The notes below the pieces were generated by a model. It had not been told where the DNA came from. It did no database searches and worked only from the letters and a program-made list of their open reading frames with translations. Made by a program: the position numbers and the translations under genes. 36,953 bases of DNA. Origin: a virus. Within the stretch, counting starts at the first letter, position 1. Every line of letters begins with the position of its first letter. The stretch spans positions 1-36,953 of IMG/VR virus record IMGVR_UViG_3300045902_000374. One strand, written 5' to 3'. Shown one piece after another: positions 248 to 36,953 of the stretch.

Positions 248-332
248 AGGCGCGGCGGAAGGGTGGTGTGCGTGAATTATGCTGCACTCACACAAATAAT
301 TATTTTACAACTCTGTAAGCCGCGCCTTTTTT
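248..332 (+). terminator. Long-stem inverted repeat ending in a T run
   Basis: AGGCGCGGC (248-256) and GCCGCGCCT (319-327) are perfect 9-bp inverted arms, with the second arm running into TTTTTT (327-332). Between them GTGTG (266-270) pairs with CACAC (289-293), and GTG (272-274) with CAC (285-287). The shape is an outer stem, a large internal loop and an inner stem-loop. The outer arm plus T run is what an intrinsic terminator for the upstream small gene would look like. The roughly 60-nt insulated interior is long for a plain terminator, so a small structured RNA is an alternative. Confidence 0.5.
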
Positions 333-359: not shown

Positions 360-391
360 TTTGCTTGATTTACGTAAAATACGTAATTTTG
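360..391 (+). promoter_or_regulatory. Probable promoter with embedded palindromic operator for the RHH-antirepressor operon
   Basis: TTTG (360-363) is followed 20 bases later by TAATTTTG (384-391), matching the TTTG / TAnnTTTG arrangement known from Bacteroidota promoters. A sigma70 reading (TTGCTT 361-366, 17 bases, TAATTT 384-389) is also possible. Between and over these elements lies a perfect inverted repeat, TTACGTA (370-376), AAA, TACGTAA (380-386). A 7-bp palindrome between the two promoter boxes is a typical operator position for a dimeric RHH repressor, and the first gene of the operon is such a protein. A poly-T tract precedes the promoter. Confidence 0.55.
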
Positions 392-422
392 TATAAAATT
401 TTGCTTAGCTAACGGAGGCAAT

Positions 423-638
423 ATGGCACGACTTAGAAGAACTAGAAAAAATAGACGGCGCAGCCGATATTTGGGCGTTACGCTTAGGGACAACGTGGGA
501 ATCGTTGAGCATTATGCGCATCAAAATGATTGGTCATACAGCCAAGCGGCTGACAGATTGGTAAGGGCTGGAGCGGAATGTTTAGGAATTATAGGGATTA
601 CTCTTACAAAACAAACGGAGGAACAGGTGGAACAATGA
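423..638 (+). CDS. Small ribbon-helix-helix-like DNA-binding protein (Arc/Mnt-type candidate)
   Basis: 71 residues with a strong ribosome site (GGAGG, 414-418) before the ATG. The first 15 residues are almost all basic (RLRRTRKNRRRSR). They are followed by a predicted beta strand (GVTLRD, about 18-23) and two helices (about 25-35 and 38-52, ending LVRAGAE), which is the pattern of Arc/MetJ-type dimeric regulators. The stop overlaps the next gene's start (ATGA), so the two are translationally coupled. In P22 the RHH protein Arc is encoded directly upstream of the antirepressor ant and represses their shared promoter. The same order, overlap and a palindromic operator are seen here. The fold call rests on pattern only; the function is inferred. 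Confidence 0.6.
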   Translation: MARLRRTRKNRRRSRYLGVTLRDNVGIVEHYAHQNDWSYSQAADRLVRAGAECLGIIGITLTKQTEEQVEQ

Positions 639-1447
639 GCAATATTGTTTTTAAACAGTACAACAAAATTGATATACCATTTGGCATAGGCAAAAACGTT
701 TGGTTGAATGCCACCAAAGCGGCGGAGGTTTTTGGTAAACGTCCCGCTAATTTTTTTCAAACAGAAAGCACATTAGAGTACCTAAATGCACTCGCTGAAG
801 CGCATGGCTACGCTGTTACTGATTTTTCAGTAACAGAAAATGTCGGCAAATTTTCGACAAAAGAGCTTGCAAAAATGTTCCCTCAATTTATTTACGTCCG
901 TCAGGGCAACGGCAACGCGCAAGAGCAGGGCACATGGATTTCTAAGGAATTGGTTATCAATTATTCGCGCTGGCTTGACGCTAAGTTTGCGGTTTGGTGT
1001 GATGTTCAGATTCAAGAATTGTTGGATAAAGGCAACGTTAGCATACGAGCAAAATTGCCTGAAAACTATGCCGCCGCTCTCCGAGAACTAGCGGACACGG
1101 TAGAAAAAAAAATGCGCTTGGAAATGGAAAACGCTGAAATGGTTCCAAAGGCGGCTTTTTTTGACGCTGTAATGCAATCGGATGACGAATTTGATATGCA
1201 CGAAGTGGCAAAAATTCTAAATCTTGGCTTTGGTCGTAATACGCTTTTGAAAAAGCTTCGTGACGACGGGATTTTGATGGATGACAATGCGCCATATCAA
1301 AAATATGTTGATGCACATTATTTCCGTTTAGTTGAAAGCACATACGTCAATTCTGACGGCAAAAGGCACGTTAGCACAAAACCCGTCTGCACGCAAAAAG
1401 GCATTGACTTTATTTTACGTCGTTATAGTTCAAAAATTTCATCATAA
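635..1447 (+). CDS. KilA-N / KilAC (ANT) phage antirepressor
   Basis: 270 residues, started at the ATG that overlaps the upstream stop. An upstream in-frame start at 578 would run deep into the RHH gene and is disfavoured. The N-terminal KilA-N domain (about 10-130) shows VWLNATKAAEVFGKR at 22-36 and TWISKELVINYSRWLD at about 100-115. The C-terminal KilAC/ANT domain (about 169-270) shows PKAAFFDAV, FDMHEVAKILN, GRNTLLKKLRD and the ending CTQKGIDFILRRY. Proteins of this type bind DNA or repressors and switch temperate phages toward lytic growth or superinfection responses. It is coupled to the small RHH gene. A fragment resembling its last 25 residues occurs at 36814-36870. Confidence 0.92.
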   Translation: MSNIVFKQYNKIDIPFGIGKNVWLNATKAAEVFGKRPANFFQTESTLEYLNALAEAHGYAVTDFSVTENVGKFSTKELAKMFPQFIYVRQGNGNAQEQGTWISKELVINYSRWLDAKFAVWCDVQIQELLDKGNVSIRAKLPENYAAALRELADTVEKKMRLEMENAEMVPKAAFFDAVMQSDDEFDMHEVAKILNLGFGRNTLLKKLRDDGILMDDNAPYQKYVDAHYFRLVESTYVNSDGKRHVSTKPVCTQKGIDFILRRYSSKISS

Positions 1448-1465: not shown

Positions 1466-1633
1466 ATGCTAAGCAAGCGGTTTTTCGATGTACTTACTAT
1501 GCTAGAATCAATGACGCAAGAAGAGCGTCTTAAGCTAGCGCGATTTTTATGGTCATATTATTCTATTTCTATTTTCGACGACGAAAATTCATATAGCGCA
1601 AAATCTGTTCCTGACTCTGTCCCTGAAAACTAA
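1466..1633 (+). CDS. Small hypothetical protein
   Basis: 55 residues, ATG start 6 bases after a near-perfect Shine-Dalgarno site (AAAGGAGG, 1452-1459), which makes translation likely despite the size. The N-terminal half is amphipathic and basic (MLSKRFFDVL, MTQEERLKLARFLW). The C-terminal half is acidic, serine-rich and probably disordered (SIFDDENS...VPENstop). No family is recognised. It sits 18 bases after the antirepressor, so it is likely the last gene of that operon, ahead of a GC-rich hairpin. Confidence 0.6.
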   Translation: MLSKRFFDVLTMLESMTQEERLKLARFLWSYYSISIFDDENSYSAKSVPDSVPEN

Positions 1634-1638
1634 ACAAC

Positions 1639-1668
1639 GCCCCGCGAAGGCGCCAACCAACGCGGGGC
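1639..1668 (+). terminator. GC-rich hairpin after the regulatory operon
   Basis: GCCCCGCG (1639-1646) pairs perfectly with CGCGGGGC (1661-1668) across a 14-base loop, five bases after the stop of the 55-residue gene. No clean T run follows, only AATTTATTTTAA about 20 bases on. It may be a weak terminator, an mRNA 3-prime stabilising structure or a processing site rather than a classical intrinsic terminator. Confidence 0.45.
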
Positions 1669-1705
1669 AAACAATCAACCAACCAATTTATTTTAAGGTG
1701 CTGTC

Positions 1706-1840
1706 ATGATTACAAAAATGCAATTTTTCGACGAAATAAACAACATCACTGACGAAGAGAGCGCGTTTGAGGAACAATTGGCGCGCGCAGAATTGGCGTG
1801 GCTACAAGAGCCGGAAAGCGACGGTGATGATTATGAGTAA
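1706..1840 (+). CDS. Very small acidic hypothetical protein
   Basis: 44 residues, rich in Asp/Glu (FFDEINN, TDEESAFEEQ, ESDGDDYE). AAGG is present 9 bases before the ATG. Its stop overlaps the start of the next gene by 8 bases (ATGAGTAA), which supports translation and coupling. No family is recognised. Its acidity suggests a protein-binding or DNA-mimic role, but that is speculation. Confidence 0.5.
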   Translation: MITKMQFFDEINNITDEESAFEEQLARAELAWLQEPESDGDDYE

Positions 1841-2642
1841 CGTAATGAAATCAGAATCCGACCGCCTTTCTGTGGCTGATATGAAATTGCTAGGCGAAAT
1901 TTTCATTAAAAGCGGCTTGTTTGGCGACCAATTAAGCGAAGCGCAGGCGGTCGTTAAAATTATGGCAGGGCGCGAAATTGGATTAGAGCCGTTTGCCGCT
2001 ATGCAGGGCATTGATATAATATCCGGCAAGGTCGTAATGAAGCCTATCGTCATGGCGGCGCGAATTAAAGCGAGCGGGAAATACGACTACCGTATTTTGA
2101 CCGAAACGGCGGAACGCTGCGAAATATCATTCTACCAAAATGGACAGTTTATTGGGAGTAGCGTTTTTACGATGCAGGACGCTGTGAAAATGGGACTAGC
2201 GGACAGGGAAAATTGGCGCAAGCAGCCCGCCGTAATGCTCTATAATCGCGCTATGTCGAAGGGTGCGCGACAGTTTTGTCCGGATGTGTTTTTCGGCGTG
2301 GCTGTCTATACGGAAGGCGAAATTGAGCCGCTGCCGCCGCAGGTTATCCCAGAGGCTACCCCAGACCCACAGCCGCAAGCGTGGGAAATGGACGACAGGC
2401 GTCTCAACGACCTTATCGACATAGCCACAAGAAAAGGGTATAGCAAAGAGGATTGGAAAAAATATCTCGCTGTAAAGTTTGGCGTCGAAATTAAATTAAA
2501 GAAAGATTTAAAATCTATTGACGAATCTCAGTACAGAGAACTGATTCTAGCAATGGAGAACGACACGCTTGTCGATGAGATTCTAGCCCTGCAGCCCGAA
2601 ACGTCCGTATCAGTAACCGCGCGGGAACTAGGCATAGACTAA
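1833..2642 (+). CDS. Possible phage single-strand annealing / recombination protein
   Basis: 269 residues when started at the ATG overlapping the upstream stop; upstream in-frame starts would extend into the previous gene. The recognisable core (about 30-155) has REIGLEPFAAMQGIDIISGK, then a beta-rich part (GKYDYRI, CEISFYQNGQ), FTMQDAVKMGLADRENW and MLYNRAMSKGARQFCPDV. I know this layout from phage proteins often placed in recombination modules and loosely grouped with RecT/Erf-like annealing proteins. The C-terminal part (about 170-269) is a separate charged tail, with a helical segment near 185-215. The position before helicase and nuclease genes fits DNA recombination or replication. The specific assignment is tentative because classical RecT motifs are absent. 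Confidence 0.5.
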   Translation: MSNVMKSESDRLSVADMKLLGEIFIKSGLFGDQLSEAQAVVKIMAGREIGLEPFAAMQGIDIISGKVVMKPIVMAARIKASGKYDYRILTETAERCEISFYQNGQFIGSSVFTMQDAVKMGLADRENWRKQPAVMLYNRAMSKGARQFCPDVFFGVAVYTEGEIEPLPPQVIPEATPDPQPQAWEMDDRRLNDLIDIATRKGYSKEDWKKYLAVKFGVEIKLKKDLKSIDESQYRELILAMENDTLVDEILALQPETSVSVTARELGID

Positions 2643-2673
2643 CTATTTTTGCAACAACATAACTCCCAAAACC

Positions 2674-3108
2674 ATGCAAATTCAATCTGTACCAAAATCA
2701 TTCGGCAAATCAATTATTGCCGAAAGCGCGAACCTTCACGCGGATGAAATAATCAAAAACGGCGATGTAGTTCAATCCCTTATCGAGTGCAAACGCATAC
2801 GCGAATTTATTGACACGTTGGAAGAGCGGCTAAAGCCCGCAGTAATCAACGCCACTCCAGACGGCGGCTTGCAGGTAAAGGGCGCAAGAATAACGGTATC
2901 GCAAAAGAGGGAATACGACTATTCGCATGATACAAAATGGCTCGCCCTGAAATCCGAAGAAGCCAAGCTTGCGCAAGAGCGGAAAGACCGCGAAAAAATG
3001 TTGCTAAATCTGAATGCGCCTATGGCGGATACAGAGACAGGCGAAATTATTGAGCCGGCGAAACTTGTATCAGTGAAATCCATTGTTGCCGTAACACTCC
3101 CAAAATAG
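2674..3108 (+). CDS. Hypothetical protein of the recombination module
   Basis: 144 residues. The N-terminal half is helical, with a charged segment (IECKRIREFIDTLEERLKP, about 38-56). Next comes a short beta region (GLQVKGARITVSQKREYDYS), then a lysine/glutamate-rich helix (EEAKLAQERKDREKMLLNL, about 94-112), and a tail with DTETGEI. Proteins of similar size and makeup occur next to annealing proteins and nucleases in phage recombination modules. I cannot name a family. No Shine-Dalgarno site is visible. It begins 31 bases after the previous stop and ends 4 bases before the next start. Confidence 0.75.
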   Translation: MQIQSVPKSFGKSIIAESANLHADEIIKNGDVVQSLIECKRIREFIDTLEERLKPAVINATPDGGLQVKGARITVSQKREYDYSHDTKWLALKSEEAKLAQERKDREKMLLNLNAPMADTETGEIIEPAKLVSVKSIVAVTLPK

Positions 3109-3112
3109 CGCT

Positions 3113-3376
3113 ATGGAAAAATCCGCTATTATTGCAACCGTTTCCGTCGCTAACCACAGCACAGGCAAAATGCTAATTGTGGACGTGATAGAGGGTGAAA
3201 TGAGTTATTATGTAGGATTTTCAAAAGAGGCGAATGCGAGTCATTCGCCTCGATTGGAATACCAACTAAATACAGAGCGCGCCGCGTTGCATGAAAACAT
3301 GACGAAAATGCAGGAATTGTGCGAATACGGTATAATATGGATGCGGTCGAAAAATGTTACAATATTATCGGAATGA
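3113..3376 (+). CDS. Hypothetical protein
   Basis: 87 residues, predicted mixed alpha/beta, with an N-terminal beta-rich part (SAIIATVSVAN, GKMLIVDVIEGEMSYYVGF) and a C-terminal helix-rich part (TERAALHENMTKMQELCEYG). It starts 4 bases after the preceding gene without a visible ribosome site, so it may depend on coupling. No recognised family. Position suggests an accessory role in recombination or replication. Confidence 0.6.
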   Translation: MEKSAIIATVSVANHSTGKMLIVDVIEGEMSYYVGFSKEANASHSPRLEYQLNTERAALHENMTKMQELCEYGIIWMRSKNVTILSE

Positions 3377-3506
3377 ACGCGCCTCGCTTGCGCCTATAAC
3401 ACAGGCGGCATATATACTGCAATTCACGAATATCAATAACAGCGTTGTACGCTATTTCGCTGTCAGCGAACACGCGCAAATAATAAGGAGCGTTTTACGT
3501 GGCTAA
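3354..3506 (+). CDS. Small overlapping ORF bridging two replication genes
   Basis: An ATG-started frame of 50 residues (begins MLQYYRNERAS, ends IIRSVLRG). It overlaps the previous gene by 23 bases and the next by 8. It exactly spans the only sizeable gap in this module (3377-3498), the arrangement expected of a real compact phage gene. No Shine-Dalgarno site precedes it and no family is recognised, so it may instead be chance reading through a leader. Confidence 0.35.
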   Translation: MLQYYRNERASLAPITQAAYILQFTNINNSVVRYFAVSEHAQIIRSVLRG

Positions 3507-4026
3507 ATATCAACAAATACAGGTAAAAATGTACGACGACCTAGAATATAATACGTGGACTGCAAACGTCCGTTTTGTATGGATGGTGCTACTGACAAAC
3601 CCTAATGCGTCTTTGTGCGGCATACAGGAAAACAACGTGCAATCTCTCACACGCTACACAGGTTTGCAGCCGTCGGAGGTCGAAGAGGCATTGCGGTTTC
3701 TTGTTGAAAAGCGTAAAATAGTTATATCGAAATTCTCGCAAGAAATTGCTATTGTTAAATGGATTCCGCATAACGTAACGGCAAGCCCTAAACAAAAAGC
3801 GGCGGTAAAAAAGCAGCTTTTGGCGGTGAAAGATAAGTTGTTATTGCAACATTTAGAGGGCGTTCAGGATTATTTGCCTAGCGTGAAGCAGTCTTCGTCT
3901 CCACAATTACAACACAATCCAAACCGGAAGCTTCCAGATGAATACAGCACATTCGAGCGCCTCAAGCTCCAACAAGTTACACTTGCAGCCCTCGCACGGC
4001 ACCGCGCAACGGCTACATTCCACTGA
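3499..4026 (+). CDS. Probable replication initiator / helicase-loader-like protein
   Basis: 175 residues, GTG start with AAGGAG 8 bases upstream. The first 100 residues look like a winged-helix domain of the phage replisome-organiser type: YDDLEYNTWTANVRFVWMVLLTNPNA, then SLTRYTGLQPSEVEEALRFLVEKRKIVI, a recognition-helix and wing pattern. A basic linker (SPKQKAAVKKQLLAVKDKL) and a low-complexity tail follow. The family binds the phage origin or the helicase. Lying directly before a DnaB-type helicase supports this. Its last 89 bases overlap the helicase reading frame in another frame, so its disordered tail is partly constrained by that overlap. Confidence 0.6.
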   Translation: MAKYQQIQVKMYDDLEYNTWTANVRFVWMVLLTNPNASLCGIQENNVQSLTRYTGLQPSEVEEALRFLVEKRKIVISKFSQEIAIVKWIPHNVTASPKQKAAVKKQLLAVKDKLLLQHLEGVQDYLPSVKQSSSPQLQHNPNRKLPDEYSTFERLKLQQVTLAALARHRATATFH

Positions 4027-5356
4027 AATTGAGCGGAATATTATTGGCGCGTGTGTAGTGAGCGCGAACGCTTTGCAGCGCTGTATCGCTGAATCGGTAA
4101 CGGAAGAAGATTTTTATTTAGAAACAATGCGCATTCTTTGGACTGCTCTATCGTGGTTCAGCGCAAATTCTATACCCGTCGACCTCGTAGCAATAGCGGA
4201 GCACTTAAAAAGTATTGGTTTGGCGTTCCCACCCTCTGAGTTGGCGGATATTTCTACCCGCGTGGAAAATATTTTCATACGGAACATTGATTTGCATATT
4301 GCCACATTGAAATCATACACGAAGAAACGCCGTTTGAACGATTTTGCAAACAATCTAACACAGAATATCGAATCATACTTAAAAGAGCCTGACGCGGCGG
4401 TAATGGAGCTACAAACGCAGGTTACGCAGCTAACGATAGCCAACGGGCGCAAGAAGCGGCGTAGCTCGATGGAAATTGCAGAAAGCGCATTGAAATTGTT
4501 ACATAATCGCATTAGCGGCGTTTTTAACGGCGTCCATACAGGGATAAAATCGCTCGACAGACTTTTAGACGGCGGGCTTACAAACGGTTCTTTAACGGTA
4601 ATTGGCGCGCGCCCAGGCGTGGGTAAAAGCGTCCTTTGCGCTCAAATAGCGGCAAACGTAGGCATTCAACAGAAAAAAAATGTGGTCGTGGCGAGCTATG
4701 AAATGAAATCAGAGGCATATATCTGGCGCATTGCATCTGGGCGCACGTCCGAAAACTGGAAATATCCAACAGAAACAAGTATCCCAATCCTTACCAACGC
4801 AATAGCAGAAATATCGCGAAGCGGGGTGCAGGTTTGGGACGATAGCACGATGAACGCTGTGCAAATGCAAATTGAGTTAGAACAATTACGCCAAGTGCAG
4901 CCTTTAGATTTGCTTATTGTTGATTTTATACAGCGTATGCCAGCACATGTGCGATATGCAAATCGAAAGGACTTAGAAATAGGAGAAATCAGTATGAAAC
5001 TCAAAGACATTGCGATGAAATTTGATATTCCCGTATTGGCGGTTTCCTCGCTAAATCGCAAAACGGAAGAACGCCAAAACAAACGCCCTTTGCTGTCTGA
5101 CTTACGGGAATCTGGCAGTATTGAATCAGACGCCGACGTCGTTTTAGGTCTCTACCGCCCTGACGAAGAAAAAATTGACGGTACAACCAAGCCGTCGGAT
5201 ACCCTTATAGAAATCAACGTATTGAAAGCTAGGGACGGCGCGGCGGGCACGATAACGCTTGGATTTAATGGCGAATTTTCACAGGTTTGGGACATTGATA
5301 CGGAGCCAAATTTGCACTACGCCGCGCCGCAAATTGAGGGAGGAATACCGTTTTGA
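3938..5356 (+). CDS. Replicative DNA helicase, DnaB type
   Basis: 472 residues. The N-terminal DnaB domain begins near residue 28 (HSTEIERNIIGACV, about 28-41), and a RecA-like ATPase domain follows. Walker A is GARPGVGKS at 223-231, Walker B LLIVD at 325-329, and the DnaB signature LRESGSIESDADVV lies at about 389-402. It forms a hexamer that unwinds the phage replication fork 5-prime to 3-prime. The chosen ATG lies inside the previous gene (89-base overlap). A TTG about 45 bases later would still keep the whole conserved domain, so the exact start is uncertain. It ends by overlapping the nuclease start. Confidence 0.95.
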   Translation: MNTAHSSASSSNKLHLQPSHGTAQRLHSTEIERNIIGACVVSANALQRCIAESVTEEDFYLETMRILWTALSWFSANSIPVDLVAIAEHLKSIGLAFPPSELADISTRVENIFIRNIDLHIATLKSYTKKRRLNDFANNLTQNIESYLKEPDAAVMELQTQVTQLTIANGRKKRRSSMEIAESALKLLHNRISGVFNGVHTGIKSLDRLLDGGLTNGSLTVIGARPGVGKSVLCAQIAANVGIQQKKNVVVASYEMKSEAYIWRIASGRTSENWKYPTETSIPILTNAIAEISRSGVQVWDDSTMNAVQMQIELEQLRQVQPLDLLIVDFIQRMPAHVRYANRKDLEIGEISMKLKDIAMKFDIPVLAVSSLNRKTEERQNKRPLLSDLRESGSIESDADVVLGLYRPDEEKIDGTTKPSDTLIEINVLKARDGAAGTITLGFNGEFSQVWDIDTEPNLHYAAPQIEGGIPF

Positions 5357-5700
5357 AAACTCAAGAAGCGCAGTTGCAAGAAGCCTGTATGCGATGGGCG
5401 GCTTTGCAGTATCCGAAATTGCTAATTTGGCATTGTCCAAACGGCGGATCCAGAAACATAAGAGAGGCTGTTAATTTGAAAAAGCAGGGCGTAAGAGCGG
5501 GCGTCTGCGATATACACGTGGACAAGGCTTGCAATGGTTGGCACGGTTTGAAAATTGAACTCAAAACGCCAAACGGCAAACTGTCCCCTGCGCAAGCGGC
5601 GTATTTGCAGCAGGTTAGAAAGGAGGGCTATTTTACGGCGGTATGCTATTCGTTTGATGAATTTGTTCAGACGCTACGGGGTTATTTAGGTGAAAATTAA
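5353..5700 (+). CDS. VRR-NUC family nuclease
   Basis: 115 residues, TTG start overlapping the helicase stop (TTGA), implying translational coupling. It is a stand-alone VRR-NUC domain: QEACMRWAA near the start, then HCPNGGSRN (27-35), GVRAGVCDI (46-54) and IELKTPNGK (68-76). The PD-(D/E)XK-like metal site would be Asp53, Glu69 and Lys71, with Gln81 in the following helix. Family members cut branched or structured DNA. Here it probably resolves replication or recombination intermediates and may be the nuclease partner of the annealing-protein candidate. It is the last gene before the structural genes. Confidence 0.9.
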   Translation: MKTQEAQLQEACMRWAALQYPKLLIWHCPNGGSRNIREAVNLKKQGVRAGVCDIHVDKACNGWHGLKIELKTPNGKLSPAQAAYLQQVRKEGYFTAVCYSFDEFVQTLRGYLGEN

Positions 5701-6587: not shown

Positions 6588-7229
6588 ATGGCAGTTATTC
6601 GTATTCGCAGAGGTTTAGAGGCGTCTATCGTCGCCGCCAACCTTCCATTAGGCGAAATTGTCCTCGCAACAGACACAGGGCGGCAGTTCTACGGGACTGG
6701 TTCAGGCGTAGCGCCGTTCAAGGTTGATTCGGCGGACGTACTAAATACTAACGTCGCTAACGGTCTTGCAAGATTGAACGGTTCCGGTATTTTGCCTACG
6801 TCTCTTCTCCCTGCGTTGGCAATTACAGACGTTTACGCAGTGGCGGACATCCCCGCGCGTGATGCGCTTGTTGTCGAAGAGGGCGATGTGGCGATTGTCG
6901 CTTCAGACGGCAAAACGTACATTTACGACGGTTCGGCATGGCTGGAAATTGCGGCGCCGGGCGGCGTTACATCTGTGAACGGTGAAACGGGAGTTGTTAC
7001 GCTCTCGCTAGACGACATCGCCAACGTTAATGCCGCTGCCCCGTCCAATGGGCAAGCGCTGATATTCGATGGAACAAACTGGGTTGCCGGCGCCAATGGC
7101 GTTTCTGTATTCACGTCCCTTACCGATACTCCTTCGACTTATGTTGGCGCGGAAACGTATTTTGTGCGTGTGAACGCGGCTGGCACTGAATTGGAGTTTA
7201 CGAACGAAATTGATGGCGGCACAATATAA
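6588..7229 (+). CDS. Tail fibre-like protein with Mtd-type N-terminal domain
   Basis: 213 residues with GAGG 9 bases before the ATG. The first 40 residues (AVIRIRRGLEASI, PLGEIVLATDTGRQFYGTGSG) match the small beta domain found at the start of the Bordetella phage major tropism determinant and many tail fibres. It serves for trimerisation or attachment. The middle has SVNGETGVVTLSLDDIANVNA, a repeat common in phage fibres, and FDGTNW. No reverse transcriptase or template repeat is nearby, so this is not a diversity-generating target. The next gene repeats the N-terminal domain. Confidence 0.75.
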   Translation: MAVIRIRRGLEASIVAANLPLGEIVLATDTGRQFYGTGSGVAPFKVDSADVLNTNVANGLARLNGSGILPTSLLPALAITDVYAVADIPARDALVVEEGDVAIVASDGKTYIYDGSAWLEIAAPGGVTSVNGETGVVTLSLDDIANVNAAAPSNGQALIFDGTNWVAGANGVSVFTSLTDTPSTYVGAETYFVRVNAAGTELEFTNEIDGGTI

Positions 7230-13915: not shown

Positions 13916-15256
13916 GTGGCAGAGCCAATATTTCATATTGCCGACGAAAGCGGGAACAATAACCGCAATCTTAAAAATACGTTAGGGGAACTGTACCCCG
14001 GCGCTACCGGCGACGTTCTAACGCTGCAATCAAATGGAGAATGGGCTGCGCAAGCCCCAGCGGGCGGCGGCGGCGCTAAGCTCTTTATGGAAAAGGTCAT
14101 AATTTCAGCCGATAACGTTATACCGCCGCTTTCTTATACCCCTGCAGACCCTTCACAAGTGCGGATGGTGGTTCGCAACGTAATACACACGCCAAAAAGC
14201 AATGATTTTAGTGTTTTGGGGAAAAACGTAACGATTGCAAATACTGGTTATGTAATTAAAGCGGGTTGGCACGTAGAATTTCACTACGAAACTCTCGACA
14301 CAATCGTAATGCCTACAATAACGTCGTTTAGTCCTACAAGCGGCACGATAGCCGAAACGGTGGTCATTACAGGCGCGAACTTTGTAAACGTTCAATCGGT
14401 AACAATAGGCGAGGTTAATCAACCATCATTTGTTGTTGATTCCCCAACACAAATAACCGTAACGCTTGTTAATGGCTCTTACGTTGGTACGGATGTAGTC
14501 GTAACAACTGGCACAGGGACAGCCTCGCAATCGGGTTTCACGTTCAACAGCCCAGCGCCAACAATTACAAATATATCGCCGTTAATCTCTGCTATTGGCA
14601 ACGAGGTTGTAATAACAGGCGTTAATTTCATAAATGTTTCAAGTGTGAAATTTGGCGGTGTTAATGCTGCTTCGTATATTGTAGATAGCTCTACGCAATT
14701 GCGAGGCGTTATAGCGGACACAGGCGCGGCGGGGACGGTAGAAATTACAACCCCGTTTGGCACGGCAACGAGCGCCCAATCTATTACGCTTGACCAGATA
14801 CTTATTTTCCCTAGGTCCGGTCGTACAATGACTAACAACCTTACGGTATTTGGCGGGCTTAATTATGTTGCTAGCGCTAGCTCTTTCGCATTTGCGGGGC
14901 GTGAGCCGTATTTGGCGTTTAACCTCGTTTATACAGATTTTTGGCTCGCAAGTAGCGGTACAAATGAATGGTTGCAAATTCAATTCCCATTACGCGCTAG
15001 AGTCCGAAGGTATCAATTAGCGACCGCGAACGTTAATAACAGCCATCACCCCCGAAATTGGCTTTTCCAAGCTTGGGACGGGTCCGCATGGGTAACGCTT
15101 GACACAAAGGTTAATCAGTTTTTATCATTTAATACTACCTATAACTACCCTATAACTAACAACGTCTATTACGACCGATACAGATTGTTTGTGCAAAATA
15201 CGCAGACAGCAGGATGGGCGGCAGCATTGGCTAACTTAATTCTTCACCCTGTATAA
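13916..15256 (+). CDS. Adhesin with two IPT/TIG domains and a C-terminal discoidin-like domain
   Basis: 446 residues from a GTG with no obvious ribosome site. The N-terminal part (about 1-50) carries SGNNNRNLKNTLGELYPGATGDVLTLQSNGEWAAQ in pieces common at fibre starts, then a short glycine hinge (GGGGA, about 50-54). Two Ig-like IPT/TIG domains follow at about 132-210 (ITSFSPTSGTIAETVVITGANF) and 214-292 (ITNISPLISAIGNEVVITGVNF). The remainder (about 300-446; FWLASSGTNEWLQIQFP, RRYQLATAN, RNWLFQAWDGSAWVTLDT) matches the F5/8 type C (discoidin) sugar-binding layout. A carbohydrate-binding tail fibre or side protein is likely. Confidence 0.75.
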   Translation: MAEPIFHIADESGNNNRNLKNTLGELYPGATGDVLTLQSNGEWAAQAPAGGGGAKLFMEKVIISADNVIPPLSYTPADPSQVRMVVRNVIHTPKSNDFSVLGKNVTIANTGYVIKAGWHVEFHYETLDTIVMPTITSFSPTSGTIAETVVITGANFVNVQSVTIGEVNQPSFVVDSPTQITVTLVNGSYVGTDVVVTTGTGTASQSGFTFNSPAPTITNISPLISAIGNEVVITGVNFINVSSVKFGGVNAASYIVDSSTQLRGVIADTGAAGTVEITTPFGTATSAQSITLDQILIFPRSGRTMTNNLTVFGGLNYVASASSFAFAGREPYLAFNLVYTDFWLASSGTNEWLQIQFPLRARVRRYQLATANVNNSHHPRNWLFQAWDGSAWVTLDTKVNQFLSFNTTYNYPITNNVYYDRYRLFVQNTQTAGWAAALANLILHPV

Positions 15257-18043
15257 ATGACACAAACACATTTTTCCCAAATAACTCCTATCCCGCCTTC
15301 GCATATTGATACAGTCGGCGCGGTAAATGGGAACAGCATAGTTTTCAACGGCACATCATACGTACCGTTGTTCCCTGTTTCGGCGTTTAATAATGGAACG
15401 CCTTTGGGTCGTGTGGAAGAAATTAATATCACGGGCGCGGGCGGTTTTGCAAGCGTAAGCGGTAAGCGCATGACAATTAACGTAGGTAGTGGATTTAAGG
15501 CGCGTTCGACCTCTCCCCTTATCCCGTATCAGGATATTACATTTTTAGACATAGGAGCGGGCTTATTAGCGGGCTTTAGCCCTAATACGCTAACAATATC
15601 AGCAAGCGCCGCAACGCCTGTCATCGGTATTTCTAACGCAGGCAGCGGGGCTGGTATTGTAGAAAATCCTGGCGCTAGCAGCTCGTTTACACTTCGTAGT
15701 ATTAGCGCCGGTTTGGGGATTACTGTAACACAGATAGGAAGCGTCATACAGATTAGCAGTAATGCAGGCGGCGGTGGAGGCGGCGGGCTTTCCGGAGTTT
15801 CTGGTAACGGTTTGACCGTTTTCCCTAATGCCGTTACTTTAGCATTAGCAAACAATTCAAGCGCGGGCGCAGCCCCAGCGCTTACGGGAATATCTACCGA
15901 CTATCTAGCAGGGGACGGCGTATATCGCGCTTTGCCTAGTTCTTCAGGCGTTACGACATTTAACGGATTTAACGGCGCGATACAACTTATGAACGGCATG
16001 AATACGATCGTTGTACCATTGGGCGGCGGTCAGTTCCGCATAGATGCAACGGGCGGCGGTGGAGGCGGCGGCGCGGTAAATCAAGTAACAAGCGGCGCCC
16101 CTTCGGTTCTTACTGTTTCGCCCACAAGCGGGAATGTTGTAATAACTCCAAACGGACAATCTGTAACGCTTAATAGCGCTTGGAATCCTAGTACGCGACT
16201 GCTTAGTATCCCCGTTGGCGTGTATCAAAACGGCATTTTAACAAGTTCCGCATTGAATCAATTTGACTTGTCCGCAACGGGCGGCTATGGTACGGTAGAG
16301 GTGCGATACAACGGCGTTACAATCAATCCAGCGGCTGCAATACTTAATTTTACAGGCGCGGGCGTTACAAACGTTTTTAACGGCGTTGGAACTGAAATTA
16401 ACATTGCGGGCGGTGGCGGTGGCGGTATAGCTGGAATTTCTGTAAACGGTATAGGCGCATACACTAATCTAATTTTTAACGGCGCGGGCGTTACCGTCTC
16501 TGGCAATCAAATCACTATTCCAGGCGGCGGAGGCGGCGGTGGAGGCGGATTAGTTGGCACAAGCGGTAACGGTCTTGTTGTAACTCCTAACAGCGTTTCC
16601 CTTAATCTGGCTAGTATAAGTAGCCCCGGCGCTATGCCGGCGCTCCCAAATAATCCCAATCTTTTCCTTAACGGCGTTGGCGCGTGGGCTGCTCCTTCAG
16701 GCGGTGGAGGCGGCGGCATAGCTGGAATTTCTGTAAACGGTATAGGCACATACACTAATCTAATTTTTAACGGCGCGGGCGTTACCGTCTCTGGCAACCA
16801 AATAACTATTCCAGGCGGTGGAGGAGGCGGCGGCGGCGCGGTAAATCAAGTAACAAGCGGGAACGCAAGCGTTTTGCAAGTTTCGCCCACAAGCGGGAAC
16901 GTTGTAATAACTCCGATAGGAACGACGGCGTCTTTCACGCCTTCCGTCAATTATTCAACGGCTGTATTAAGTCTTGCTTCTACGACGCATAACGGCGGCA
17001 TACTATCGTCGCAAGGGACGCAGTTTATTGATTTATTGCCGTTACTGGGCATAACCGTAGCAAGTTTTGCAAACCAAAACGACGTAGCCGCGAGTATGTT
17101 TTCTTCTAACACGCGAACACTTCGGCTCCGCGCTGGGACAGGCGTAACGCTGACCGGTTCAACGCCGCTACCTAATGTAGCGGATATAGTTATCAACGCG
17201 GCGGGCGGCGGCGGTGGCGGCGCGGTGAATCAAGTAACGAGCGGGAACGCAAGCGTTTTGCAAGTTTCGCCCACAAGCGGGAACGTTGTAATAACTCCGA
17301 TAGGAACGACGGCGTCTTTCACGCCTTCCGTCAATTATTCAACGGCTGTATTAAGTCTTGCTTCTACGACGCATAACGGCGGCATACTATCGTCGCAAGG
17401 GACGCAGTCTATTAATCTATTGCCGTTACTGGGGATAGCCGTAATAAGTTATCCAACTCCAACCGCTCCGGGTCCGACTACGCTTCTTTCTGGTGTAAGA
17501 ACTCTTACGCTGCGCGCTGGTACAGGCGTAACGTTGGACGCGTCGTCGTCGGGAGGAGGTGTAGCGGATATAGTTATCAACGCGGCGGGCGGCGGCAATT
17601 TGCCCCCCGCAGCGCCAAACGATTTCCTTTTTTACAGCGGACCCTCTTGGGCAGCTTCAAACGTAGTAAAATATACCCCCACTAGCGCTGTTAGCGCTGT
17701 GTTCCATCATAAAGATAGCACGCCTACAAACGGCGTAATCTTTGGCTCTTCATCAACGTCGCTGGTTAATCAAAACATATCTGTTTTGGCTTCCGCTTTT
17801 ACGGAAATAAAGGGTTCTAGCATACAAATAGCATCAACTAGCGGATATTTATACCTAGATGTAGGCGGTGGCACGTATGAAATCGGCGCTCTACCGACGC
17901 CTGGTGCAATCGTGTATGGGAATTCTGGCTCTAGGCAAGGCTTTTTCGGCAAAACTCCTATCCCGCGCCCTAATGTAACAGCCGGCAGCCTTGCCTCTTT
18001 GCAAACAGCGCTCGCAAATCTTGGACTAATCAATTTGGTTTAA
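15257..18043 (+). CDS. Giant glycine-rich tail fibre with internal repeats
   Basis: 928 residues, starting directly after the previous stop. The N-terminus (HIDTVGAVNGNSIVFNGTSYVPL) is a fibre-type beta repeat. From about residue 170 onward, runs of 5-9 glycines alternate with short beta units. Two near-identical units (about 391-423 and 488-520; AGISVNGIG...NLIFNGAGVTVSGNQITIP) and three AVNQVTSG units occur, the last two almost identical. The C-terminus (about 790-928) looks like a distal domain (VFHHKDSTPTNGVIFGSSS, GSRQGFFGKTPIPRP) ending SLQTALANLGLI. Polyglycine runs in phage adhesins can pack as polyglycine-II bundles. It is probably the long tail fibre or a side fibre. Confidence 0.75.
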   Translation: MTQTHFSQITPIPPSHIDTVGAVNGNSIVFNGTSYVPLFPVSAFNNGTPLGRVEEINITGAGGFASVSGKRMTINVGSGFKARSTSPLIPYQDITFLDIGAGLLAGFSPNTLTISASAATPVIGISNAGSGAGIVENPGASSSFTLRSISAGLGITVTQIGSVIQISSNAGGGGGGGLSGVSGNGLTVFPNAVTLALANNSSAGAAPALTGISTDYLAGDGVYRALPSSSGVTTFNGFNGAIQLMNGMNTIVVPLGGGQFRIDATGGGGGGGAVNQVTSGAPSVLTVSPTSGNVVITPNGQSVTLNSAWNPSTRLLSIPVGVYQNGILTSSALNQFDLSATGGYGTVEVRYNGVTINPAAAILNFTGAGVTNVFNGVGTEINIAGGGGGGIAGISVNGIGAYTNLIFNGAGVTVSGNQITIPGGGGGGGGGLVGTSGNGLVVTPNSVSLNLASISSPGAMPALPNNPNLFLNGVGAWAAPSGGGGGGIAGISVNGIGTYTNLIFNGAGVTVSGNQITIPGGGGGGGGAVNQVTSGNASVLQVSPTSGNVVITPIGTTASFTPSVNYSTAVLSLASTTHNGGILSSQGTQFIDLLPLLGITVASFANQNDVAASMFSSNTRTLRLRAGTGVTLTGSTPLPNVADIVINAAGGGGGGAVNQVTSGNASVLQVSPTSGNVVITPIGTTASFTPSVNYSTAVLSLASTTHNGGILSSQGTQSINLLPLLGIAVISYPTPTAPGPTTLLSGVRTLTLRAGTGVTLDASSSGGGVADIVINAAGGGNLPPAAPNDFLFYSGPSWAASNVVKYTPTSAVSAVFHHKDSTPTNGVIFGSSSTSLVNQNISVLASAFTEIKGSSIQIASTSGYLYLDVGGGTYEIGALPTPGAIVYGNSGSRQGFFGKTPIPRPNVTAGSLASLQTALANLGLINLV
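16427..16816 (+). repeat. Intragenic direct repeat pair, unit A (about 99 bp, offset 291)
   Basis: Bases 16427-16525 and 16718-16816 are nearly identical, differing at only a few positions (for example GCGCATACA against GCACATACA). They encode the unit AGISVNGIG..TNLIFNGAGVTVSGNQITIP, each copy bounded by glycine-codon runs. DNA identity this high within one gene suggests recent duplication or ongoing gene conversion. Confidence 0.85.
16837..17434 (+). repeat. Intragenic direct repeat pair, unit B (about 214 bp, offset 384)
   Basis: Bases 16837-17050 and 17221-17434 match almost throughout. They encode AVNQVTSGNASVLQVSPTSGN and the following unit up to LLPLLGI. A third, diverged copy lies at about 16074-16290 (AVNQVTSGAPSVLTVSPTSGN). 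Sequence after the unit differs between copies (ITVASFANQ against IAVISYPTP), so the duplications end at domain borders. Confidence 0.85.
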
Positions 18044-27286: not shown

Positions 27287-27340
27287 GCCGGAAACAAGCA
27301 AGGCATAGGTAAATATGCCTTGCTTCGTTTCGGCGCTTTT
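27287..27340 (+). terminator. Strong hairpin terminator after the major tail gene
   Basis: AAGCAAGGCATA (27296-27307) pairs perfectly with TATGCCTTGCTT (27314-27325) across a six-base loop. The stem extends with GAAAC (27291-27295) to GTTTC (27327-27331) and GCC (27287-27289) to GGC (27332-27334), leaving single bulges. CTTTT follows (27336-27340). The T run is short but the stem is about 20 bp. It would cut transcription of the chaperone and tape measure genes relative to the tube gene. Confidence 0.75.
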
Positions 27341-27362: not shown

Positions 27363-27839
27363 ATGGCAAAAACAACAAAAGACACTATTAAAATTGTATC
27401 GTACCGCGAAGACGGGACGCAAATTACGATTGAAGCGGCGGCGCGCCCGCTTTCAATGAAAGTTTTGCACGAAGTAGAGGCGTTGCGAACTCAATATACG
27501 GATTTTGCACAGCTTGCGGCGCTTATCGCAAGCATGGCGGAGGCGGGTTTTGATGACACAGATGAAACGATGAGACCGTTCAAACAGTTAATTAAAATGT
27601 TTGAAAAGGGCATGACGGAAGAGCAAGCGGTCGCGCTCCTTCGGAAGGACATGGGTGAAACGGCGTTAAAAAATAGCGAATTAAGCGTAGAGTTGTTGCG
27701 GAAACTTATGGTTCGCGAGCAACTGAAAACATCTGAAAAAGAACTAATAGACAGCGATATACACGGAGATTTCTGGCAGAATGCAGATTTAACGCTTATC
27801 CGTGAGCAAGCTGAAGACTACTTTCGCCGCTATCAATAA
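27363..27839 (+). CDS. Tail assembly chaperone, short product (gpG-like)
   Basis: 158 residues, helical and acidic (PLSMKVLHEVEALRTQYTDF, EEQAVALLRKDMGETALKN, LTLIREQAEDYFRRYQ). The slot between the major tail and tape measure genes is that of lambda gpG. Its 3-prime end overlaps a second reading frame that has no convincing own start, so a fraction of ribosomes probably shift near codon 154 (TTT C, 27822-27825) to make the longer gpGT-like product. Such proteins coat the tape measure during tail assembly. Confidence 0.75.
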   Translation: MAKTTKDTIKIVSYREDGTQITIEAAARPLSMKVLHEVEALRTQYTDFAQLAALIASMAEAGFDDTDETMRPFKQLIKMFEKGMTEEQAVALLRKDMGETALKNSELSVELLRKLMVREQLKTSEKELIDSDIHGDFWQNADLTLIREQAEDYFRRYQ

Positions 27840-36453: not shown

Positions 36454-36497
36454 TTGAAAGTGTGCCGCTGAAATGCGGCGCTTCAAGATATTTTTTT
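36454..36497 (+). terminator. Intrinsic terminator of the tail operon
   Basis: GCCGC (36464-36468) pairs with GCGGC (36475-36479) around a TGAAAT loop, extended outward by TTGAAAG (36454-36460) against CTTCAA (36481-36486). A T run follows (36491-36497). It starts 24 bases after the last tail gene, which is where the late transcript should end. Confidence 0.8.
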
Positions 36498-36546
36498 GCA
36501 TTTTTTAGATTTTTTTCTCTTGCATATCTGCAAATTATGGAGTATT

Positions 36547-36759
36547 TTGCGAAAAGTTAAGCATAAAGCGCAACAAAAATTAAAATTCATAGCAAAATAC
36601 AAGTATAAAACTCTAACAATCGAGAAGCGACTCTTGCCGCGATTAGCCGCTCAGGCTGAACGGCTAGATTTGAAAATTGGCACGTTAGCAAACAGAATCC
36701 TCCATAAATGGTTGCGGGCTGTAGAAAAAAACAGGCTCTTAAAAATGTCAATGCAATAA
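36547..36759 (+). CDS. Second small RHH-like DNA-binding protein
   Basis: 70 residues if started at TTG 36547, which has GGAG 4 bases upstream. The frame is open from 36496 but has no ATG there. A lysine-rich arm (RKVKHKAQQKLKFIAKYKYK) precedes a strand (KTLTIEKRL) and two helices (LPRLAAQAERLDL, KIGTLANRILHKWLRAV). Length and layout match the RHH gene at 423, and it is likewise followed by antirepressor sequence. It could be an Mnt-like regulator or a decaying paralogue. Confidence 0.5.
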   Translation: MRKVKHKAQQKLKFIAKYKYKTLTIEKRLLPRLAAQAERLDLKIGTLANRILHKWLRAVEKNRLLKMSMQ

Positions 36760-36789
36760 GCGGCGCAAGCGGCAACGGTCAAAATACTA

Positions 36790-36900
36790 ATGCATAAAAC
36801 CGAAAACTTGCGCTATGTTAGCACAAAAATTATCTGCACGCAAAAAATTGCACTTTGTTTCCGTCGTTACGCCCCAAATTATTCATTATTAACCGCTTAA
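36790..36900 (+). pseudogene. Fragment of a KilAC antirepressor C-terminus
   Basis: A 36-codon frame whose middle reads YVSTKIICTQKIALCFRRY. This lines up with HVSTKPVCTQKGIDFILRRY at the end of the antirepressor (635-1447), one residue shorter in the middle. The DNA also matches: GTTAGCACAAAA and TCTGCACGCAAAAA are shared. The KilA-N part and most of the ANT domain are missing, so this is a remnant of a second antirepressor gene rather than a working one. Confidence 0.75.
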
Positions 36901-36910
36901 TCAGAATCGT

Positions 36911-36953
36911 CGATAGGGTATAGATAGGGTATCGATAGGGTATCGATAGGGTA
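36911..36953 (+). repeat. Tandem 11-bp repeats at the window end
   Basis: Units CGATAGGGTAT (36911-36921), AGATAGGGTAT (36922-36932), CGATAGGGTAT (36933-36943) and CGATAGGGTA (36944-36953, cut by the window edge). They are head-to-tail with one base change in the second copy. They could be iterons of a replication origin, binding sites for the nearby small DNA-binding proteins, or the reason the contig ends here. Confidence 0.85.

Follow-up and report, generated by a model that had tools for sequence, protein, structure and literature searches.

A candidate arc-ant-like repressor-antirepressor operon at the head of the early genes of a tailed phage

The gene pair at positions 423-1447 of a tailed phage contig can be read as an autoregulated repressor-antirepressor operon, arc-ant-like in its organization and heading the early genes; we give this reading about an even chance. 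A small gene directly precedes and overlaps an antirepressor gene with KilA-N and KilAC domains, a perfect palindrome stands ahead of the pair, and a terminator-like hairpin lies upstream of the palindrome. The features of the region are as follows.

248..332, + strand: terminator-like hairpin with a U-run (stem 248-256/319-327, GGCGCGGC...GCCGCGCC, then TTTTTT)
369..397, + strand: putative sigma70 promoter (TTTACG 369-374, 17 nt, TATAAA 392-397; 9/12 consensus matches)
370..386, no strand: operator-like perfect palindrome of 17 bp (it lies over the -35 and the spacer and contains two TACGTA boxes, 9 bp apart)
423..638, + strand: 71-aa basic-armed small protein, probable ribbon-helix-helix (RHH) autoregulator (ORF; phrog_24852, E 1.2e-4)
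635..1447, + strand: 270-aa antirepressor-type protein (KilA-N about 656-1024, KilAC 1124-1426; Pfam KilA-N and ANT, PHROG anti-repressor Ant)
1466..5700, + strand: downstream early genes, same direction
1767-2642, + strand: RecT-like annealing protein
3499-4026, + strand: DnaA/DnaD-like replication protein
3938-5356, + strand: DnaB helicase
5353-5700, + strand: Holliday-junction-resolvase-like protein
+ strand: other named genes (endolysin, terminase, portal, protease, major head protein, head-tail connectors, tape measure)

The window, that is, the whole stretch of DNA that was analysed, is the complete IMG/VR record IMGVR_UViG_3300045902_000374 (36,953 bp, linear, GC 46%), and the record is a linear genome fragment. 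All named genes in the window lie on the + strand. Neither an integrase nor a CI-like repressor was found within the 36,953-bp record, and no helix-turn-helix (HTH) repressor is among its annotated genes. The initial annotation had remarked that no CI-like target repressor is visible; this is correct for the record, but it is weak evidence because the record is a linear fragment. In near-identical phages (L002-L004) and in TerL relatives the antirepressor region is absent or outside their coverage. Elsewhere in the window, positions 6588-7229 encode a tail-fibre-like protein with weak matches to the Mtd_N domain (E 0.004) and to tail PHROGs. In a 928-aa ORF at 15257-18043, for which no family match at E < 0.01 was found, a 384-bp unit is present twice in tandem (16826-17596), the copies being 85% alike. 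A strong hairpin with 12-bp arms (AAGCAAGGCATAGGTAAATATGCCTTGCTT, 27296-27325), just 5' of the ORF at 27363, is probably a terminator between structural genes.

The strong hairpin at 248-327 (RNA fold -31.3 kcal/mol, z -2.35 to -2.55) resembles a terminator and appears to separate an upstream unit from the operon of the 71-aa gene and the antirepressor. If the hairpin and its TTTTTT end the upstream unit, a new promoter is expected at 333-422. Promoters were scanned for over 300-422 by consensus match only, and the best normally spaced pair located at the palindrome is TTTACG 369-374 with TATAAA 392-397; a second pair with a 17-nt spacer lies further upstream (CTGTAA at 313, TATAAT at 336-341). 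With the TTTACG/TATAAA pair, the -35 is overlapped by the palindrome, which also fills the spacer. Its earlier placement between two promoter boxes does not stand, since that would need TTGATT at 365 with TATAAA at 392 and a spacer of 21 nt.

The assignment of the 270-aa protein as an antirepressor of the KilA-N/KilAC type was confirmed, both domains scoring above the Pfam cut-offs: KilA-N (PF04383) with E 3.9e-16 and 59.3 bits (cut-off 23.8), KilAC (PF03374) with E 2.6e-26 and 92.5 bits (curated cut-off 25.3). The overlap reported between the two genes is likewise present as an ATGA, with the stop of the small gene at 636-638 and the ATG of the antirepressor at 635. This ATG is the likely start; the first ATG of the antirepressor ORF, at 578, lies well within the 71-aa gene. 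Both genes have good ribosome sites, that of the 71-aa ORF being a good Shine-Dalgarno sequence, GGAGG, at 414-418. No + strand terminator was found downstream of the pair up to position 3500, so that the same promoter may also feed the recombination and replication genes.

The 71-aa protein is probably RHH-like, as judged from its predicted structure. Its sequence has a basic arm and a RYLGVTL segment with alternating hydrophobics. An AF2 monomer model made from the single sequence, with no alignment, has an extended stretch at 15-20 and helices at 21-34 and 39-70, with block pLDDT of 90-94. Fold matches to this model are weak, none with E < 0.001. They include the RHH chains AtaR, KacA, TacA2, CdbA and Arc, and viral Mnt/CopG/RHH entries appear at E > 0.2; because HU chains lead the VIA-align list (best Z 4.9, HU), that list is not proof of an RHH fold. 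The sole family match is phrog_24852 (E 1.2e-4), of which no members were found in 398 genomes of one phylum. Pfam and NCBIfam gave no match, PF01402 (RHH_1) and PF03869 (Arc) being negative even at E 10, and no family model places the protein in the RHH superfamily. A small RHH profile built here, partly entered by hand, ranked held-out Arc, Mnt, CopG, NikR, ParD and the proteins of loci L178 and L151 (see below) each first of 501 against shuffles; the 71-aa protein did not rise above its own shuffles with that profile. Aligned with hhalign, it falls on the RHH profile in the expected register (P 0.12). No homologues were found in viral contigs, genome contigs or phages, and plasmid matches were at chance level only. 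Of the 71-residue RHH-like gene proposed initially, the ORF at 423-638 is real and the RHH fold plausible from the model, and no RHH profile detects the protein.

For comparison, 80 KilAC loci were taken from viral contigs and 64 from a set of 85k genomes. A scan of 48 proteins, the window's own together with 47 upstream neighbours, gave 18 matches to HTH_3, and HTH (Cro/XRE-type) proteins are, by these matches, common among the KilAC partners sampled. RHH profile scoring of 143 KilAC loci brought out only two distinct elements, L178/L179 and L151; L178 and L151 are seeds of one of the two RHH profiles used, and they also lead with a profile made without them. In L151 an RHH-like gene lies in mid-operon and has the same ATGA overlap with an antirepressor gene as the 71-aa gene. 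L178/L179 is the closest KilAC match in the 85k genomes (55%). Its order is a terminator-like hairpin, TTGACA, a palindrome (TTATCAAGTTTTGATAA, TTATCAA-GTT-TTGATAA, 17 bp, 7-3-7), a gene for a 46-aa RHH protein (hhalign P 5.8e-6) and an antirepressor of the Bro-N/KilAC type. It thus shares with the window the hairpin, the 17-bp 7-3-7 palindrome, the small gene and the KilAC antirepressor in the same order, and differs from it in having Bro-N instead of KilA-N, a 61-nt gap instead of an overlap, another palindrome sequence and an RHH protein that is clear by profile. As an independent element, L178/L179 supports the pairing of RHH proteins with KilAC antirepressors. By profile scoring the RHH-KilAC association is recurrent but rare, in a comparison that was made after seeing the case. 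The upstream gene of a further locus, L239, looked RHH-like by eye, failed the profile tests and was set aside. The first bases of L178 match L179 at its position 959 onwards, after which the two share their genes; this DNA was binned in MAGs of two bacteria, Desulfobulbaceae and Geobacter, and is either a phage contig or a case of mis-binning.

Boxes like the paired TACGTA, each self-complementary and spaced by roughly a turn of the helix, are what two RHH dimers would contact, as in CopG, MetJ and Arc. Lambdoid operators, too, are typically dyads of 17 bp, and the palindrome suits a lambda-like CI/Cro operator equally well. The main rival to autoregulation is an HTH repressor of the CI/Cro/XRE type encoded outside the contig, with the palindrome as its operator. 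The genes would then form an early operon under ordinary repression, in which the 71-aa protein is a passenger or co-regulator. This is possible, and it gains from the linear state of the contig and from the predominance of HTH proteins among the upstream partners of KilAC genes. A precedent is C. difficile phage phiCDKH01, whose XRE repressor represses KilAC antirepressor genes (PMC11172241). Early modules of XRE/Cro plus KilAC, such as that of phiCDKH01, resemble the window in that a DNA-binding regulator controls an early operon with a KilAC antirepressor, but the regulator is an HTH protein and not RHH-like. An operator of such a repressor would typically be one of several, whereas a single dyad is present here, and no HTH repressor was found among the annotated genes.

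The palindrome described initially, TTACGTA-AAA-TACGTAA, is exact at 370-386, its only copy in the window. Taken simply as a dyad, it does not stand out and is only mildly beyond chance: a perfect repeat with 7-bp arms is present in 26% of dinucleotide shuffles of 242-422, and one with at least two G/C per arm in 10% of these shuffles and in 2.4% for the stretch 340-422. Of about 44 upstream regions (90 bp) of the same phage, 7 contain arms of at least 7 bp. Together with the failure of RHH profiles to match the 71-aa protein, such figures allow for an inverted repeat that is there by chance, the promoter DNA being AT-rich, beside a small protein of other fold and role. We consider this unlikely, because a dyad of the same geometry precedes the RHH-KilAC pair in L178 and because, of just five copies of TACGTA in 36,953 bp, two form the boxes of the palindrome, 9 bp apart and exactly at the promoter. 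These paired boxes are the distinctive and more telling part of the palindrome. Its own hairpin was ruled out as a terminator (-4.7 kcal/mol, two G-C pairs). The exact 17-mer was found at 23 loci in viral contigs, at none of them near a KilAC gene, and so is no marker of the switch; in other viruses the genes that it precedes are unrelated ones. At most of these loci, in many other virus contigs, TTACGTAAAATACGTAA (L245-L267) lies about 54 nt 5' of a gene whose product is a conserved protein of 88 aa (M[TA]KKTDDLKITDEELK...), where it looks like a conserved promoter element.

A toxin-antitoxin-type module, in which a small DNA-binding autoregulator neutralises or limits a KilA-like protein harmful when overproduced, has in its favour the antitoxin-first order, ATGA overlap and palindromic operator known from type II modules, the antitoxins AtaR, KacA and TacA2 among the fold matches, and the toxicity of P1 KilA and of excess P22 Ant, but is very unlikely given that KilA-N/KilAC is a regulator family (PHROG anti-repressor Ant), that PADLOC gave no match and that the pair sits at the head of early phage genes.

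In phage P22, arc and ant are transcribed from Pant, which is repressed by Arc (PMC12111858). The window resembles P22 immI in having a small gene for a putative repressor directly 5' of an antirepressor gene, and a putative shared promoter with an operator-like dyad that overlaps promoter elements, with autoregulation as proposed here. It differs in several respects. The antirepressor is of the KilA-N/KilAC type and not of the P22 Ant type, no divergent mnt is seen in the window, and the pair precedes early recombination and replication genes. The candidate operator is one perfect 17-bp dyad, and the small protein is RHH-like only by model. As the genes overlap by 4 nt in the ATGA, there is no intercistronic region and no room for a sar-type RNA between them. 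The small gene is in the right place before the antirepressor for a member of the Arc family, but PF03869 does not match it. The operon may plausibly work like arc-ant, and by no sequence test is it a member of the arc-ant family. The switch proposed in the initial annotation is partly supported: the order and overlap of the genes, a predicted new transcription unit and the operator-like palindrome are in keeping with autoregulation of the arc-ant kind, while the RHH assignment is structural only.

Beyond the tail genes, at the opposite contig end, lies a second candidate cassette.

36464..36481, + strand: terminator-like hairpin after the tail genes, 5' of the second small gene (inverted repeat; -15.2 kcal/mol for 36455-36500)
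36547..36759, + strand: second small gene, for a basic 70-aa protein that may be RHH-like (match to phrog_582, Arc-like repressor, at E 0.008)
36790..36900, + strand: relic of a KilAC C-terminus, 36 codons, directly 3' of the second small gene (frame ...YVSTKIICTQK..FRRY..)

The second small protein aligns to the RHH profile with P 0.019 (hhalign), and its single-sequence AF2 model is one long helix; BLASTP detected no similarity between it and the 71-aa protein. The KilAC relic is identical to 1370-1425 at 46 of 57 nt (blastn, E 9e-7). These matches suggest that 36547-36900 is what is left of another small-gene/antirepressor cassette, a possible second pairing that lends support to the operon reading. 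Should the genome be circularly permuted, this cassette and the one at 423-1447 would lie side by side. The very end of the contig, 36910-36953, is an 11-bp tandem repeat of four copies (TCGATAGGGTA), and a similar unit, ACTACCCTATA, occurs on the other strand at 15134-15158.

Under the autoregulated repressor-antirepressor reading, a new transcript would start at about 400-410, after the terminator-like hairpin at 248-327. It would first encode the 71-aa RHH-like protein, then the translationally coupled KilA-N/KilAC antirepressor, and would probably run on into the early recombination and replication genes. As the level of the 71-aa protein rises, two of its dimers would occupy the paired TACGTA boxes and obstruct RNA polymerase at the -35, which would constitute negative autoregulation. 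Since the protein would in this way shut its own promoter, the antirepressor would be made as a short pulse. Its target would be a repressor whose gene lies outside the fragment, whether in the rest of this genome, in a resident prophage or in the host itself. The unusual "minimal switch" of the initial annotation goes beyond the evidence. It is highly doubtful that the 71-aa protein, in place of CI, serves as the main repressor of the early operon (recT, dnaD-like, dnaB) and has the KilA-N/KilAC protein as its dedicated antirepressor, in a self-contained two-gene lysis switch with no HTH repressor.

KilAC antirepressors are common in phages, in the present sample usually beside Cro/XRE-type proteins, and the limitation of their dose is little studied. 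If the autoregulated operon is real, the arc-ant principle, in which a small autorepressor meters an antirepressor, would have been put together on more than one occasion, with antirepressors of unrelated families.
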